Positions 233 to 6,265 of a stretch of DNA of 22,881 bases are shown piece by piece. The stretch is from a virus. The notes below the pieces were generated by a model. That model was not told where the DNA came from, searched no databases, and saw nothing but the letters and a program-made list of their open reading frames with translations. Within the stretch, counting starts at the first letter, position 1; the number at the start of each line of letters is the position of its first letter. The stretch covers positions 1 to 22,881 of the IMG/VR virus record IMGVR_UViG_3300048121_001641; one strand, given 5' to 3'. The position numbers and the translations under genes are program-made.

Positions 233-1840
233 ATGATCGAGAAGTATGTTGACTTCGGTGCAGAAGCTGGAGACAAATTAATTGAGGGTATCAATACTCT
301 CGCAAACGCTGTGAAAACAACTTTAGGGGCAGCAGGAAAAACAGTAATCATAGAGAACGAATTTGGTAGGGCACACGTCACTAAAGATGGTGTTACTGTA
401 GCTAAGAGCATCAACCTAACTCATCCTGTTATGCACATAGGAGCAGAGATTATTCGTGAGGCATCTATTAAGACCGCTGACAAGGCAGGAGATGGTACAA
501 CCACCTCTGTAGTCCTCGGACAGAAGTTAATCGAACTAGCAGTCGCTAAAGTGCGTTCTGACGACAAGATGAATGTTAGCGAATTCAGAGACAATCTAGA
601 TATGTTATCTAATAAGGTAATCGACTATATAGACGAAAACAAGAAGAAGGTAACAAAAAAAGATCTTGCTAACGTAGCATCGATATCAGCAAACAACGAC
701 AAGGAGCTGGGATCTATTATAGCAGACGCATTTAACAAGGTTGGATCAGATGGTGCTGTGTCAGTAGAGACATCCCCCACAAACAATACATACGTAAAGG
801 TGGTGGAAGGTACAAGAATGAAGAGAGGATATATAAGTCCGTATTTAATAACAGACAAAGAAAAGTCTACCTCAACACTAGAGAACCCATTTGTATTGTT
901 ATCAGACAAGAAGGTGTCTAAGTGGGATGATATTAAATTTTACCTTGAAGTATCTATCACAAAAAAACGACCTATATTAATTGTAGCCGATATTGATCAG
1001 GCTGTAATGGCAAACATAAACACCAACAAGCTACGAGGAGCTCTTGACATTAATGTGGTGGCTCCTGAGGGAGTGGGCAATAATCGCCTGGAGTTACTTA
1101 ATGACTTAGCCGTAATGACAGGGGCTGTCGTAGTTTCTGATGACACTGGTGTGGATTGGAATAATATGAGTCTAGATAACCTGGGTTCAGCGAAGAAGGT
1201 AACCTCATCTGCAGGACAAACTATCATTACATTGAATGGTTCTACCAAAGATGAAGTTAAGAAGCAAGCAGAGACCGTTAGAGCGATTCTAGAGAACAAA
1301 GAAGATAAACCTAACATATGGCACCACAAAGATCGTTTATCACGATTAGCAGGCGGTGTAGCGACTATATATGTAGGTGCGTATACAGAAGTTGAGTTAA
1401 AGGAAAAGAAAGACCGTGTAGATGATGCTATAAGTGCTACACGAGCTGCTCTTGAAGAAGGGGTAGTTCCAGGAGGTGGGTCTTCGCTTCTGCATGCGAG
1501 CTCACATATACTATCAGAGTATAGAGGTAAGAAACTTACTAAGACCTTAGATGCTGCTATAGAAACTATATGCTTCGCATTGTTGTCACCTATTGAAACA
1601 ATAATGACTAACTCTGGATTGGATTTAGTGGATGTAGATGAAAAGGTAAGAGAGATAGGAGAGCGTGGATTTAAAATAGGATACGATGTCAAGAAACGAG
1701 AAATCGTTGACATGTATAAGTCTGGAGTAATTGATCCTGCTAAGGTGACTAAGAATGCATTCTCAAACGCAATGTCTGTTGCACAGATTGTATTACAGAC
1801 AAACTGTATAGTAACTAACAAGAGAGAAGACAAGTCATGA
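233..1840 (+). CDS. groEL: Phage-encoded chaperonin GroEL (Cpn60)
   Basis: A 535-residue group I chaperonin. It would form the ATP-driven folding ring and work with a GroES cap in the host cytoplasm. Seen directly: the equatorial ATP-site signature AGDGTTTSVV puts the catalytic aspartate at D87; TKDGVTVAK gives D52; and DRVDDAISATRAALEEG gives D397/D398. D52, D87 and D398 carry the same numbers as the key E. coli GroEL aspartates. VVPGGGSSLL also matches the family. The apical domain is more divergent: the usual KAPGFGDRRKAML stretch reads VVAPEGVGNNRLELL. The C-terminus ends in TNKREDKS and lacks the Gly-Gly-Met tail of cellular GroEL. The start has an A-rich leader (215-232). Its stop overlaps the groES start by ATGA at 1837-1840, so the two are probably translationally coupled. 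Fully intact, not a remnant. Confidence 0.96.
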   Translation: MIEKYVDFGAEAGDKLIEGINTLANAVKTTLGAAGKTVIIENEFGRAHVTKDGVTVAKSINLTHPVMHIGAEIIREASIKTADKAGDGTTTSVVLGQKLIELAVAKVRSDDKMNVSEFRDNLDMLSNKVIDYIDENKKKVTKKDLANVASISANNDKELGSIIADAFNKVGSDGAVSVETSPTNNTYVKVVEGTRMKRGYISPYLITDKEKSTSTLENPFVLLSDKKVSKWDDIKFYLEVSITKKRPILIVADIDQAVMANINTNKLRGALDINVVAPEGVGNNRLELLNDLAVMTGAVVVSDDTGVDWNNMSLDNLGSAKKVTSSAGQTIITLNGSTKDEVKKQAETVRAILENKEDKPNIWHHKDRLSRLAGGVATIYVGAYTEVELKEKKDRVDDAISATRAALEEGVVPGGGSSLLHASSHILSEYRGKKLTKTLDAAIETICFALLSPIETIMTNSGLDLVDVDEKVREIGERGFKIGYDVKKREIVDMYKSGVIDPAKVTKNAFSNAMSVAQIVLQTNCIVTNKREDKS

Positions 1841-2094
1841 AAGCGTTAGGAGACAAAGTACTACTGAAAAGAGTAGAAGAAGAAGTAAAAGACAGTTTAG
1901 GTTTGGTAGTAACCGAACTAACAGATAAAGACGTTAGACATAAGCGAGCTGCTGTAGTTAGTGTGGGTGACAAAGTAGTTGGACTAAATGAAGGAGACGA
2001 AGTGTTGTATGATATGGCAGCTGGCTCTAGCGTTAGAATTAAAGGACAGACCTATATAATTATACCAGAATTCAAGATAGATATACTGCTCTAG
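1837..2094 (+). CDS. groES: Phage-encoded co-chaperonin GroES (Cpn10)
   Basis: An 85-residue Cpn10-family protein, expected to form the seven-subunit lid of the GroEL chamber. It starts like the family (LGDKVLLKRVEEE, residues 4-16). The segment EVKDSLGLVVTELTDKD (about residues 16-32) lies where the mobile loop sits, with GLVV (22-25) in place of the GroEL-contacting GIVL. It then follows the family fold through VVSVGD, NEGDEVLYD and a terminal IIIPEFKIDIL. Compared with E. coli GroES (97 residues), the stretch between VSVGD and EGDEV is about nine residues short, which removes most of the roof hairpin; T4 gp31 also lacks this hairpin. It is coupled to groEL by a 4-base overlap. The order groEL-groES is the reverse of the usual bacterial groES-groEL operon. 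Confidence 0.9.
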   Translation: MKALGDKVLLKRVEEEVKDSLGLVVTELTDKDVRHKRAAVVSVGDKVVGLNEGDEVLYDMAAGSSVRIKGQTYIIIPEFKIDILL

Positions 2095-3552: not shown

Positions 3553-3710
3553 AACACAAAGGTCTTGGGGATACGGTACATGCAGTGACAAAAGCCACTG
3601 GAATAAAAGCTATTGTAGATGCAGGCTCAAAAGCATTTAACAAGCCTTGTGGGTGTAACAGACGTAGAAAGACTTTAAACGAATTATTTCCTTATGGCAA
3701 AAAGAGCTGA
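3549..3710 (+). CDS. Small CxC-containing protein (53 aa)
   Basis: ATG 3549 overlaps the preceding stop by 4 bases; TGA at 3708-3710. The sequence runs KGLGDTVHAVTKATGIKAIV, then KPCGCNRRRKTLNELFPYG. The combination of a GLGDT-type start, an ATGI(K) helix and a CGCxxRRxxLNxxFPY end resembles a small protein I associate with marine phage genomes, with no known function. The Cys-Gly-Cys pair could bind metal or form disulfides. Its last 17 bases overlap the next gene in another frame. Confidence 0.7.
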   Translation: MKHKGLGDTVHAVTKATGIKAIVDAGSKAFNKPCGCNRRRKTLNELFPYGKKS

Positions 3711-3993
3711 CAAATCATCAATGCCTTGCAATAAACCTAGAAAAAGCACTAGTGCAGGTAAGAAGAAAATGGTAAAGGCTTGTTCAGGAGGTCAAGAGAA
3801 GATCATACACTTTGGTGCTAGTGGTTATGGACATAACTATTCTGCTGCTGCTAGAAAGTCTTTTAAGGCTAGACACAAATGCAGTACAGCAACTAACAAG
3901 CTTACAGCGAGATACTGGGCTTGTAAAAATTTATGGGCTGGAAAAGGAGGGTCCACCAAATCATCTCCTAAAAGTAAAAAAGGAAAATATTAG
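3694..3993 (+). CDS. Small Lys/Cys-rich protein (99 aa), conserved phage type
   Basis: A very basic 99-residue protein with five cysteines (MPCNKPRK, VKACSGG, RHKCSTATNK, RYWACKNLW). The central part HFGASGYGHNYSAAARKSFK and the RHKCSTA...LTARYWACKNLWAG stretch are a signature I recognise from hypothetical proteins of marine phages and some large DNA viruses, where the function is not established. The end is low-complexity Ser/Lys (KSSPKSKKGKY). There is no membrane segment. The start overlaps the previous gene. The spaced Cys residues suggest a small metal-stabilised fold, and the charge suggests DNA or cell-surface contact; both are inference. Confidence 0.75.
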   Translation: MAKRADKSSMPCNKPRKSTSAGKKKMVKACSGGQEKIIHFGASGYGHNYSAAARKSFKARHKCSTATNKLTARYWACKNLWAGKGGSTKSSPKSKKGKY

Positions 3994-3995
3994 TT

Positions 3996-4106
3996 ATGGC
4001 AAGAAAGAAAATGAAAAACCCTTGTTGGAAAGGATATGAAGCTATAGGGATGAAAACAAAGAACGGAAAAAAAGTACCTAACTGTGTCCCAAAAAAGAAA
4101 GGATAA
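3996..4106 (+). CDS. Micro-protein (36 aa) with VPNCVP motif
   Basis: ATG 3996 to TAA 4106, two bases after the previous stop. The peptide is NPCWKGYEAIGMKTKNGKKV followed by PNCVPKKKG. This C-W-x-G-Y...GMK.KNGKxVPNCVP pattern is one I recognise from many marine phage proteins, sometimes as a free peptide and sometimes as the tail of a longer protein. Two cysteines about 20 residues apart could form a disulfide or metal site. The role is unknown. The motif match makes it very likely to be a real gene despite its size. Confidence 0.7.
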   Translation: MARKKMKNPCWKGYEAIGMKTKNGKKVPNCVPKKKG

Positions 4107-4129: not shown

Positions 4130-4444
4130 ATGGAAATTACATATATTTTATTTGCAGTAATCATACTGCTAATCATCGTTAACGTATCTGCTATTTGGTT
4201 GACCAAAAAAGGTTTAACTAAAGACGATAACAATAACATGATCCCAGACATCTTGGAGGAAAAGTTTAATGACCTAAAAGAAGATGTTTCTATCAGGGTT
4301 GATAGAGTTGGTGAAGAGCTAAAGGATGTTGGAAAAGCCATCAAAGAAGTTGGTAATCAAATAGGTGACATTCCTAAAGCTGCTACAGGGAAAACAAGAC
4401 CAGGTCGTAAACCAAAAAAAAATAATAATCATGGAAAAGCCTAA
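4130..4444 (+). CDS. Small single-pass membrane protein (104 aa)
   Basis: I choose ATG 4130 over the GTG at 4124. Residues about 3-23 (TYILFAVIILLIIVNVSAIW) form one hydrophobic helix, followed by LTKKGL, an acidic then amphipathic region with heptad-like spacing (EEKFNDLKEDVSIRVDRVGE, LKDVGKAIKEVG), and a basic tail (GKTRPGRKPKKNNN). An N-terminal anchor with a coiled-coil exterior suits an inner-membrane accessory such as a spanin-like or holin-like protein of the lysis region, but there is no specific family match. Confidence 0.72.
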   Translation: MEITYILFAVIILLIIVNVSAIWLTKKGLTKDDNNNMIPDILEEKFNDLKEDVSIRVDRVGEELKDVGKAIKEVGNQIGDIPKAATGKTRPGRKPKKNNNHGKA

Positions 4445-4505
4445 ATGCACATGTGGAAACACAAGTAGTACCCTTGGGTATTGTGATGGTTCACATAATA
4501 AATAA
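4431..4505 (+). CDS. CDGSH-like mini-protein (24 aa)
   Basis: ATG 4431 starts 14 bases inside the preceding gene; TAA 4503-4505 shares its last A with the next ATG (TAATG). The whole product is MEKPKCTCGNTSS then TLGYCDGSHNK. It contains CxCxxT...CDGSH, the signature of CDGSH iron-sulfur proteins (mitoNEET type), in which three Cys and one His hold a 2Fe-2S cluster. The gap between T and the third Cys is six residues, against five in the classic pattern. At 24 residues it is little more than the motif itself. The tight overlaps on both sides support translation; cluster binding is inference. Confidence 0.55.
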   Translation: MEKPKCTCGNTSSTLGYCDGSHNK

Positions 4506-4660
4506 TGGAAGATTTGAAGATATACGGAATAAGTATAACTGCATTAAGCGGTAGTTTTATTGCTGAATTAAATCCACTTTTATCTACTCTAGTTTTAACT
4601 GCTACCCTAGTGTATACAATAATACAAATAGGAGAGAAACTTAAAAACAAAAAGGAATGA
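4505..4660 (+). CDS. Small membrane protein (51 aa), holin-like
   Basis: ATG 4505 overlaps the previous stop by one base; TGA 4658-4660 overlaps the next ATG (ATGA, 4657-4660). Residues about 7-41 are hydrophobic (YGISITALSGSFIA and NPLLSTLVLTATLVYTIIQI), giving one or two membrane helices, followed by a short basic tail (GEKLKNKKE). The size, charge and position next to an endolysin gene fit a small holin or antiholin, but this cannot be told apart from other small membrane peptides. Confidence 0.62.
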   Translation: MEDLKIYGISITALSGSFIAELNPLLSTLVLTATLVYTIIQIGEKLKNKKE

Positions 4661-4941
4661 GTAGTATAGATATTAATGGAGACGGTAAGGCAGACATTTC
4701 TATTAGTCTTCCACAAATTATTATGATAGCAAGTTTATTTGCTTCAGTAATAGGATCTTATTATACATTAAATAATAGGATAACATTGCTAGAAGAAGAA
4801 GTTTCTAAACTAAAATACAACCAAAAAGAATATACTTGGAAAAACCAAAGAGCATTAGAAGATGAGGTTAAAGCTATGAAGCTAGAGATGAGAGACTTCA
4901 TGAAAGACCTTGAGTGGATTCAGAAGAGTAAGAAAAGATGA
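4657..4941 (+). CDS. Membrane-anchored coiled-coil protein with EF-hand-like start (94 aa)
   Basis: The N-terminus carries DINGDGKADISIS, a calcium-loop-like DxNxDGxxD pattern that recurs at the start of small marine phage proteins. One membrane helix follows (PQIIMIASLFASVIGSYYTL, residues about 20-39), then a long charged coiled coil (LEEEVSKLKYNQKEY, LEDEVKAMKLEMRDFMKD) and a basic end (KSKKR). This is the plan of an inner-membrane spanin or of a holin accessory. It is translationally coupled to the 51-residue membrane protein, and the endolysin starts 4 bases after its stop. Confidence 0.72.
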   Translation: MSSIDINGDGKADISISLPQIIMIASLFASVIGSYYTLNNRITLLEEEVSKLKYNQKEYTWKNQRALEDEVKAMKLEMRDFMKDLEWIQKSKKR

Positions 4942-4944
4942 TAG

Positions 4945-5406
4945 ATGGAAAGGATCTCTAAACACATATCTTATGAAGAAGGAATTAGATCTAACACCGC
5001 TCTTAGAAGAGGCATAGATAATACTCCTGGACGTTATCATAAACAAAACATGGAGATAGTTGCTGATAAGATATTCGAACCTCTCAGGGAATGGGTTGGA
5101 GGACCTATAAAAATAAACAGCTTTTACAGATGTGAGGAATTAAACACCGCTATTGGTGGTTCTTCTAGTTCACAGCATTGCCAGGGTAGAGCGATTGACC
5201 TAGACGATACCTTTGGTCATAAAACCAATGCAGAAATGTTTCAGTACATCAAAGAAAATTTAAGCTTTGATCAACTTATCTGGGAATTTGGTGACGATAA
5301 CAATCCTGCATGGGTCCATGTGAGTTATGTGTCGCAAGACCAAAATAGACTTAGAGCCATGAAAGCTGAAAAAGTAAACGGAAAAACAACCTACTCAATA
5401 ATATAA
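4945..5406 (+). CDS. Peptidase M15-family endolysin
   Basis: A 153-residue zinc peptidase of the M15 (D-Ala-D-Ala carboxypeptidase / L,D-peptidase) type, expected to cut peptidoglycan cross-links at the end of infection. The zinc motif SxHxxGxAxD is seen as SSSQHCQGRAIDLD, giving ligands H78 and D85; the third, H125, lies in AWVHVSYV. Upstream, INSFYRCEELNTAIGG matches the family's conserved S(x)YR...LN..VGG region. There is no signal peptide, so export depends on a holin. It is flanked by membrane-protein genes on both sides, forming a lysis cassette. The length is normal for a single-domain phage M15 lysin, with no separate wall-binding domain. Confidence 0.92.
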   Translation: MERISKHISYEEGIRSNTALRRGIDNTPGRYHKQNMEIVADKIFEPLREWVGGPIKINSFYRCEELNTAIGGSSSSQHCQGRAIDLDDTFGHKTNAEMFQYIKENLSFDQLIWEFGDDNNPAWVHVSYVSQDQNRLRAMKAEKVNGKTTYSII

Positions 5407-5425: not shown

Positions 5426-5845
5426 ATGACACTTCCTAAAAATGGCGTTGCCAGAGAGTTAAGAAGCTACATTGGTAGCCTTTTTATTTTTGTATTTATA
5501 ATTGGAATTATAATAACGTTTGTACAGTATCCTGTGCTAGAATCAAACAAAGAGATTGTACTAATGTTAATTGGATCTATAGCAGCTTCTATTCCTGTTC
5601 TTATAAGTGCTATAAGCGGTACTAAGCCAGACGATATTAATGCATTGAAAGCTGACGTTCAAAAAAGAGATCACACTATAGAAATGCTAGTTGAATCTAA
5701 AGATCATTTAGAGTCAATGGTTATAAATTTACAAAAAGAGATATTGTCAAACCAAGACACCATGATGGATAAAATCATCTTAAAGGCTGCAATGGATTAT
5801 GATGATAAGAACAATCCAAGCTGTAAATGTAAAGACAAGAAATAA
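5426..5845 (+). CDS. Two-TM coiled-coil membrane protein (139 aa)
   Basis: Two hydrophobic helices (residues about 15-36, IGSLFIFVFIIGIIITFVQY, and about 43-63, IVLMLIGSIAASIPVLISAI) are followed by a predicted coiled coil (about 70-110, DINALKADVQKRDHTIEMLV and on) and an end carrying two close cysteines (PSCKCKDKK). It lies just after the endolysin. The topology resembles holin or spanin-complex subunits, but no family motif is evident. An A/C-rich leader precedes the ATG at 5426. Confidence 0.7.
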   Translation: MTLPKNGVARELRSYIGSLFIFVFIIGIIITFVQYPVLESNKEIVLMLIGSIAASIPVLISAISGTKPDDINALKADVQKRDHTIEMLVESKDHLESMVINLQKEILSNQDTMMDKIILKAAMDYDDKNNPSCKCKDKK

Positions 5846-5887: not shown

Positions 5888-6265
5888 ATGATTAAAACAC
5901 TGTTATCATTACTTACAAAAGGAAGCGGAGGTAGAACGGCTATCGGAGGTTTAGCAATGGAACTGAGGCAAGCTATAAAAGGTAAGGAGCTTGACCCTAA
6001 TCAGATATTAGAACTTCAGACAAAAATAAACGAAGTAGAAGCTCAACATAGAAGTATGTTTGTGGCTGGTTGGAGACCGAGTGTCGGCTGGGTTTGCTCG
6101 TTGGCATTTGCATATCACTTTGTTGCATTTCCTATAATCAGAACAATATATCCAGAAGTGGATTTCCCAGAACTAGACACTGAACCATTGTTTACTGTTT
6201 TGATGGGCATGCTAGGGTTAGGAGGTCTTAGAACTTTTGAAAAGTTAAAAGATAAAACAAAGTAA
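5888..6265 (+). CDS. 3-TM holin of gene-transfer-agent type
   Basis: A 125-residue protein matching the plan of the 3-TM holin family named for gene transfer agent release. There is an amphipathic N-terminal region, then EAQHRSMFVAGWRPSVGWVC (residues about 51-70). The HRSxFVxGWRPxxGW block is the family hallmark. Hydrophobic segments lie at about 65-85 (VCSLAFAYHFVAFPII) and 101-115 (LFTVLMGMLGLGGL), ending with GLGGLRTFEKLK. It would form the inner-membrane pore that lets the M15 lysin out. TAA 6263-6265 overlaps the next ATG by one base. Confidence 0.85.
   Translation: MIKTLLSLLTKGSGGRTAIGGLAMELRQAIKGKELDPNQILELQTKINEVEAQHRSMFVAGWRPSVGWVCSLAFAYHFVAFPIIRTIYPEVDFPELDTEPLFTVLMGMLGLGGLRTFEKLKDKTK

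Follow-up and report, generated by a model that had tools for sequence, protein, structure and literature searches.

A widespread candidate family of very small CDGSH-like proteins in phages and marine bacteria

The question here is whether an open reading frame of 24 codons that is almost nothing but a CDGSH motif is a gene, and if so, what kind of protein it encodes and what a phage would gain from it. The window, by which we mean the whole stretch of DNA that was analysed, is a virus record of 22,881 bases. Its terminase is akin to those of phages of Flavobacterium, Cellulophaga, Maribacter, and Tenacibaculum; since these relatives infect such hosts, a marine flavobacterium is the most likely host. 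The closest terminase relative is an uncultured 60.9-kb podovirus genome with a P22-like portal. The mini-CDGSH gene, hereafter the mini gene, lies in the lysis region, among the following features:

4130-4444 (+): g4130, upstream neighbour, 104 aa; one N-terminal hydrophobic segment, a DxNxNxIPD loop, and a coiled-coil-like rest
4431-4505 (+): mini-CDGSH gene, 24 aa, MEKPKCTCGNTSSTLGYCDGSHNK; from translation, orthologues in L444, L447, and L448, and pN/pS
4446-4496 (+): 17-codon motif C-x-C-G-x-T-x4-G-x-C-D-G-S-H, with ligands C, C, C, and H; from a pattern match
4503-4507 (+): TAATG stop/start junction, the mini TAA at 4503-4505 and the next ATG at 4505-4507; from alignment, kept in relatives
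4505-4660 (+): T7-type holin-like protein, 51 aa (PF10746, E 1.6e-4, below cut-off; PHROG 920 holin, E 2.5e-4)
4657-4941 (+): membrane and coiled-coil-like protein of the lysis region, weakly spanin- or holin-like (weak PHROG lysis matches, E ~1e-3)
4945-5406 (+): M15 peptidase endolysin (PF08291, E 1.6e-16; PHROG 894 endolysin, E 1.2e-28)
5426-5845 (+): g5426 family, two hydrophobic segments and a coiled-coil-like rest; directly 5' of the mini gene in many relatives
5888-6265 (+): 3-TM holin (PF11351, E 3.6e-12; PHROG 3427 holin, E 1.5e-26)

The stretch 4431-4505 is a real gene. In three related phages (L444, L447, and L448) the frame is conserved between the same two genes as in the window, which answers the check that had been proposed for it, and the product is MKGKPICQCGNTSNAEGYCDGSHKK or a near-identical peptide. 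The surrounding order of GroEL, GroES, g2101, g3694, g3549, g4130, mini gene, and holin resembles that of the window, with g3694 and g3549 swapped. The TAATG junction, which had been read as a sign of translation, is present in the window and identical in all three relatives. Between the window and L444, pN is 0.20 and pS 0.63 for the mini gene (pN/pS ~0.3), close to the values of the holin (0.16 and 0.53) and the M15 endolysin (0.16 and 0.66). The mini gene thus shows the pattern of a protein-coding sequence and changes about as fast as the genes beside it. Pooled over the 17 motif codons of the standalone phage copies listed, pN/pS is 0.26, or 0.45 once the ligand and CDG.H positions fixed by the search pattern are removed. 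The alternative, a chance reading frame in a region of small genes, could appeal to the length of only 24 codons and to a Pfam match below cut-off; it is refuted for practical purposes by the conserved frame, place, and ligands, the synonymous excess, the recurrence at many loci, and a motif with a single occurrence in the window and none in 100 dinucleotide shuffles.

One sign of translation did not hold. The 14-base overlap with the upstream gene exists in the window, where the g4130 stop ends at 4444, but it is absent in L444, L447, and L448, where g4130 stops before the mini ATG, so it lends the gene no support. A frameshift fusion of g4130 with the mini gene at an A-rich tract was also considered and rejected: the relatives end g4130 before the mini gene, and the overlaps of 4, 11, and 14 nt with upstream genes share no single frame. 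The g4130-type family itself adjoins the mini gene in many loci; g4130 and its relatives (the c6 family) are single-TM-like and carry a calcium-loop-like motif, D-x-D/N-x-D/N-x-I-P-D.

What, then, does the gene encode? Translation of 4431-4505 gives CxCxxT...CDGSH within 24 residues, as the original prediction had it: the four ligands C6, C8, C18, and H22 are spaced C-x-C-x9-C-x3-H, with 5 residues before C6 and 2 after H22. The predicted complete 3Cys-1His ligand set is thus present, in a gene under purifying selection. The published CDGSH consensus is C-x-C-x2-(S/T)-x3-P-x-C-D-G-(S/A/T)-H (PMC5859297), relative to which the mini motif is, as predicted, one residue longer. The fuller 17-residue form, PhiCXCXX(S/T)XXXP-Phi-CDG(S/T/A)H, places C2, C4, S/T7, P11, C13, D14, G15, S/T/A16, and H17 at the [2Fe-2S] site and Phi1, P11, and Phi12 at the dimer interface (PMC3174974). 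The same study concluded that an N-strand, a P motif (GP-Phi-X-Phi), and a beta-sandwich dimerisation module are necessary for CDGSH domains, and the type 3 protein solved there has 53 residues (PMC3174974).

Measured against the CISD proteins (mitoNEET, Miner1, and the bacterial types 3-7; PF09360), the mini protein keeps the ligand order C-x-C...CDGxH and the conserved S/T7, D14, G15, and S/T/A16, but departs from them elsewhere. It carries one extra residue before CDGSH, a spacing set by the search. In place of P11, every standalone copy counted has Gly, which the phage pattern did not set, so the exact consensus is not matched. Ahead of the first Cys stands, in most copies, K, P, or some other polar residue, and the hydrophobic dimer-interface positions are largely lost. 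The N-strand, P motif, and beta-sandwich are absent from chains of 22-35 aa. In profile searches, none of the Pfam or NCBIfam profiles scores above its cut-off on the mini protein. For the window copy, zf-CDGSH (PF09360) gives E 0.02 and 15.6 bits, under the 29.5 gathering cut-off, and NCBIfam and PHROGs give no match. A profile search of solved structures returned only an ordinary 11-spacing CDGSH protein (3tbm, E 0.63) and none with the 12-residue spacing, and AlphaFold produced no confident fold (pLDDT 65 for a 33-aa relative and 54 for a tandem form). Because the ligands and their second sphere are kept while the spacing, the proline, and the dimer module are not, the sequence comparison identifies the mini protein as a variant of the CDGSH kind that belongs to no described CDGSH type.

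By the same kind of comparison, the window copy is one member of a widespread family of 22-35 residue proteins common to phages and marine bacteria. A DNA pattern for the 12-spacing motif gave at least 120 matches in IMG/VR, of which 118, the window included, are usable; the matches in L041 and L060 look spurious and were given no weight. Among the usable matches listed, 79 of 118 are standalone frames of up to 46 aa and 60 of 118 are of up to 31 aa. The smallest has 22 aa, so the suggestion that the window might hold the smallest standalone CDGSH unit does not survive. The classic 11-spacing motif in the same scan yielded 5 frames of up to 31 aa among 121 matches listed (Fisher p 2e-17); mini size therefore goes with the longer spacing, in a comparison confined to listed matches from phylogenetically non-independent loci. 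In the 69 distinct standalone phage sequences listed, C, C, G, G, C, D, G, and H are invariant, in part because the pattern imposes them. Position 7 is T in 62 and S in 7, and position 16 is S in 62 and T in 7, where the search had set S/T at position 16 and fixed the D and G.

A sample that does not depend on the motif supports the same picture. Loci were fetched through the g5426-type membrane gene alone, and 77 had enough sequence. The strict mini gene is found in 41, overlapping the g5426-type gene by 4, 11, or 29 nt; a CDSSH variant with all four ligands occurs in 2 (L670 and L674), and the gene is cleanly absent from 34. All 43 copies keep three Cys and one His. The original prediction had named frameshifts, stops, or an unconserved frame as grounds for giving it up; no broken copy and no ligand loss was seen in these 77 loci.

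The gene is also patchily distributed. In L445 the site is empty, with the g4130 stop followed by the holin start (TAATGG), and a copy lies ~4 kb upstream in the same record beside other small genes. One copy is present in 9 of 30 larger lysis-gene relatives. A pattern search of 34 terminase-relative records, many of them short fragments, found the mini gene absent from 33; the pattern was used here because PF09360 gave zero matches in these records and missed even the known L043 copy. With an empty site in L445 and the 34 clean absences among close relatives, the mini gene is an accessory gene able to change place. Its usual phage setting is nonetheless recognisable: in 55 of 77 pattern-found loci listed it has a holin/endolysin-type gene within 3 ORFs, where random placement in the same loci would give 31. 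This test is somewhat favourable to the claim, as the gene clusters were defined from those loci; one of the four clusters, the g5426 type, matches no family in its own right. Other placements include positions before GroEL (L076 and L079) and clusters of small genes (L006, L022, and L043).

Phages are not the only carriers. With Gly required at positions 4 and 11, the pattern gave at least 120 matches in a bacterial and archaeal collection. Those listed come mostly from marine Flavobacteriaceae, Cryomorphaceae, and Polaribacter, with others in Paenibacillus and Opitutae, and most are standalone frames of 24-35 aa. These chromosomal genes, for which we found no name, share the length, the 12-residue spacing, and the Gly of the phage form (MKADRPKCGCGNTSNSEGYCDGSHLNK in L326 is an example); standalone copies in marine Flavobacteriaceae thus provide a homologue in host chromosomes. 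Among 201 sampled Flavobacteriaceae genomes, 13 match the pattern, centre genome included, and none matches the reversed pattern; apart from the centre genome, all matches lie in genomes of up to 2.7 Mb. A plasmid collection contained no match.

The setting of the chromosomal copies differs from that of the phage copies. Whereas the phage gene most often sits in a lysis cassette, the bacterial gene lies directly behind YceI on the same strand in 54 of 98 standalone loci listed (median gap 5 nt), a position held in many Flavobacteria, and it has no lysis context. No YceI was seen beside phage copies. The host neighbours, confirmed by one representative each, are YceI, NADPH-dependent FMN reductase, pirin, and HxlR or MarR regulators; elsewhere the neighbours are nitroreductase (Paenibacillus) and DoxX (other bacteria). 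In Opitutae the unit is doubled within a single chain of 54-63 aa, as CISD types 5/6 are tandem doubles. Such double minis, mostly from Opitutae/Verrucomicrobiota, were noted in L352, L377, L378, L380, L408, L421, L425, L438, and L340.

The unit also occurs as part of larger proteins. In Flavobacteriales (L351:902-1564 (-) and L366) it is fused to the N-terminus of YceI, ahead of the hydrophobic signal segment. It stands at or near the C-terminus of PSP1/RicT-like proteins of Flavobacteriales and of ribosomal protein S16; carriers of these two kinds were noted at L342:2554-3735, L434:5977-7128, L423:4289-4939 (-), and L429. It is C-terminal in phage proteins of the XkdF-type serine protease kind (L028, L047, L053, L054, L057, L061, L111, and L116), the domain being confirmed by Pfam in L028. 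An in-frame ATG just ahead of the unit in these XkdF-type proteins could also start a separate mini gene. There is also a WYL_2/SH3-like phage protein in which 11- and 12-spacing tails swap at the same C-terminal place (L206, L216, L232, and L238 against L004 and L039) while the remainder is ~50-57% identical. The 11-spacing tail is the classic Pro form, and the 12-spacing tail carries Lys, not Gly. Because the two spacings replace each other in one orthologous protein, the longer loop probably forms an equivalent site that does the same job.

These observations suggest a function, which we put forward tentatively and with somewhat less than even confidence: a host-shared redox or Fe-S microprotein used late in infection. 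The product would be a very small cytosolic metal-binding protein, a CDGSH loop without its surrounding fold, whose three Cys and one His most likely hold a [2Fe-2S] cluster, or else zinc. It would probably work in pairs, as a homodimer; this mode is supported indirectly by the covalent tandems of Opitutae. In the host, the gene follows YceI and, in some lineages, also has flavin redox enzymes as neighbours, which points to a role most likely in the homeostasis of iron or of redox state (quinone or oxidative). The copy in flavobacterial phages is an accessory gene of their own. It lies most often in the lysis cassette, where it is closely packed with small membrane-protein genes, and is therefore probably made late. 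The phage peptide would then supplement or replace the host version as a redox/Fe-S accessory during virion maturation and before lysis; both the redox role and the benefit to the phage are conjectural. The conserved second sphere, (S/T), D, G, and (S/T), whose roles are described in PMC3174974, speaks for this reading. The missing beta-sandwich, N-strand, and P motif, the low-confidence AlphaFold models, the phage copies away from YceI, and the patchy distribution count against it. A bolder version seems doubtful to us: that a free-standing peptide of 22-30 residues is a complete [2Fe-2S] protein without a beta-sandwich, a redox microprotein common to marine Flavobacteria (in the YceI operon) and their phages, which would express it together with the lysis genes and so adjust lysis or late infection to host redox or iron status.

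Alternative functions draw on the same data. A single zinc ion can organise the fold of a 24-residue chain, and zinc knuckles and minimal zinc fingers hold tiny CCCH or CCHC sets in short chains that resemble the mini protein. The product might accordingly be a structural zinc loop serving as an adaptor with no redox role, as the absence of the beta-sandwich that supports 2Fe-2S and the loss of P11 and the hydrophobic positions would suggest. However, zinc knuckles differ in spacing, the mini protein keeps the second-sphere residues of the 2Fe-2S module, and several host neighbours are redox enzymes. The kept second sphere and the exchange of 11- and 12-residue loops within one orthologous WYL_2 protein favour Fe-S over a plain zinc site, short of proof, and we consider the zinc reading a serious alternative, though not a likely one. 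The lysis setting invites another idea, a timing regulator acting on the adjoining holin-like proteins, conceivably an antiholin or activator that is sensitive to redox state or metal. The frequent proximity to holin/endolysin-type genes, the short overlaps with the g5426-type membrane gene, and a holin adjoining the mini gene in the window, L444, L447, and L448 all fit. Yet many copies lie elsewhere, as before GroEL or in the small-gene clusters, the host homologue has no lysis genes around it, and phage lysis regions often hold unrelated accessory genes; we regard a timing role as unlikely. Rather improbable, finally, is a portable binding tag, a docking module used alone or attached and possibly packaged and injected with the virion. 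It gains weight from the unit's place at or near the C-terminus of XkdF-type, PSP1/RicT-like, and S16 proteins, to which the phage WYL_2 proteins may be added, and from the window frame at 3996-4106, which aligns with an internal part of one such XkdF-type protein; but a simple tag would not need the four ligands that every copy in the neighbour-based sample keeps.

The family appears to be unannotated and apparently undescribed. None of the profiles scores above its cut-off, and no paper that we found names it in phages or in connection with YceI. A tblastn search of 50,697 phage records turned up no convincing match, although these settings would pick up 108 of the 120 loci already known. 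A literature search that excluded preprints and most subscription journals found nothing that links CDGSH with phages in a relevant way, or CDGSH with YceI. A parallel is offered by the Fe-S assembly genes of marine viruses, which, in the excerpted text of PMC5332604, include IscU and A-type carriers. Like the mini gene, these are patchy marine-phage genes tied to host Fe-S metabolism; unlike the 24-aa unit, which that excerpt does not mention, they encode full-size assembly proteins.

Three of these results go beyond the original prediction: the phage family is large, host chromosomes carry a homologue linked to YceI, and Pro is systematically replaced by Gly. The beta-sandwich requirement concluded in PMC3174974 now meets a large natural family reduced to the loop, in a systematically changed form, so that the minimum for holding a CDGSH cluster becomes directly testable with a synthetic peptide. 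A phage lysis region is linked with a redox-type operon of abundant marine bacteria, and the YceI operon gains a small partner that we have not seen described.

Three further features of the window deserve mention. The frame at 3996-4106 (+), 36 aa (MARKKMKNPCWKGYEAIGMKTKNGKKVPNCVPKKKG), is 67% identical over 27 aa to the inner stretch of the L028 XkdF-type protein; it is a second small gene near the mini gene that recurs as a module of that protein. Overlapping genes at 233-2094 (+) encode a phage GroEL (Cpn60, E 1e-66) and GroES (Cpn10). At 3694-3993 (+) lies a gene for a 99-aa basic protein that matches PHROG 7595 and part of PHROG 220 (minor head protein and DNA pilot), and a 90-nt stretch of this region is 77% identical to cyanophage S-TIM5.
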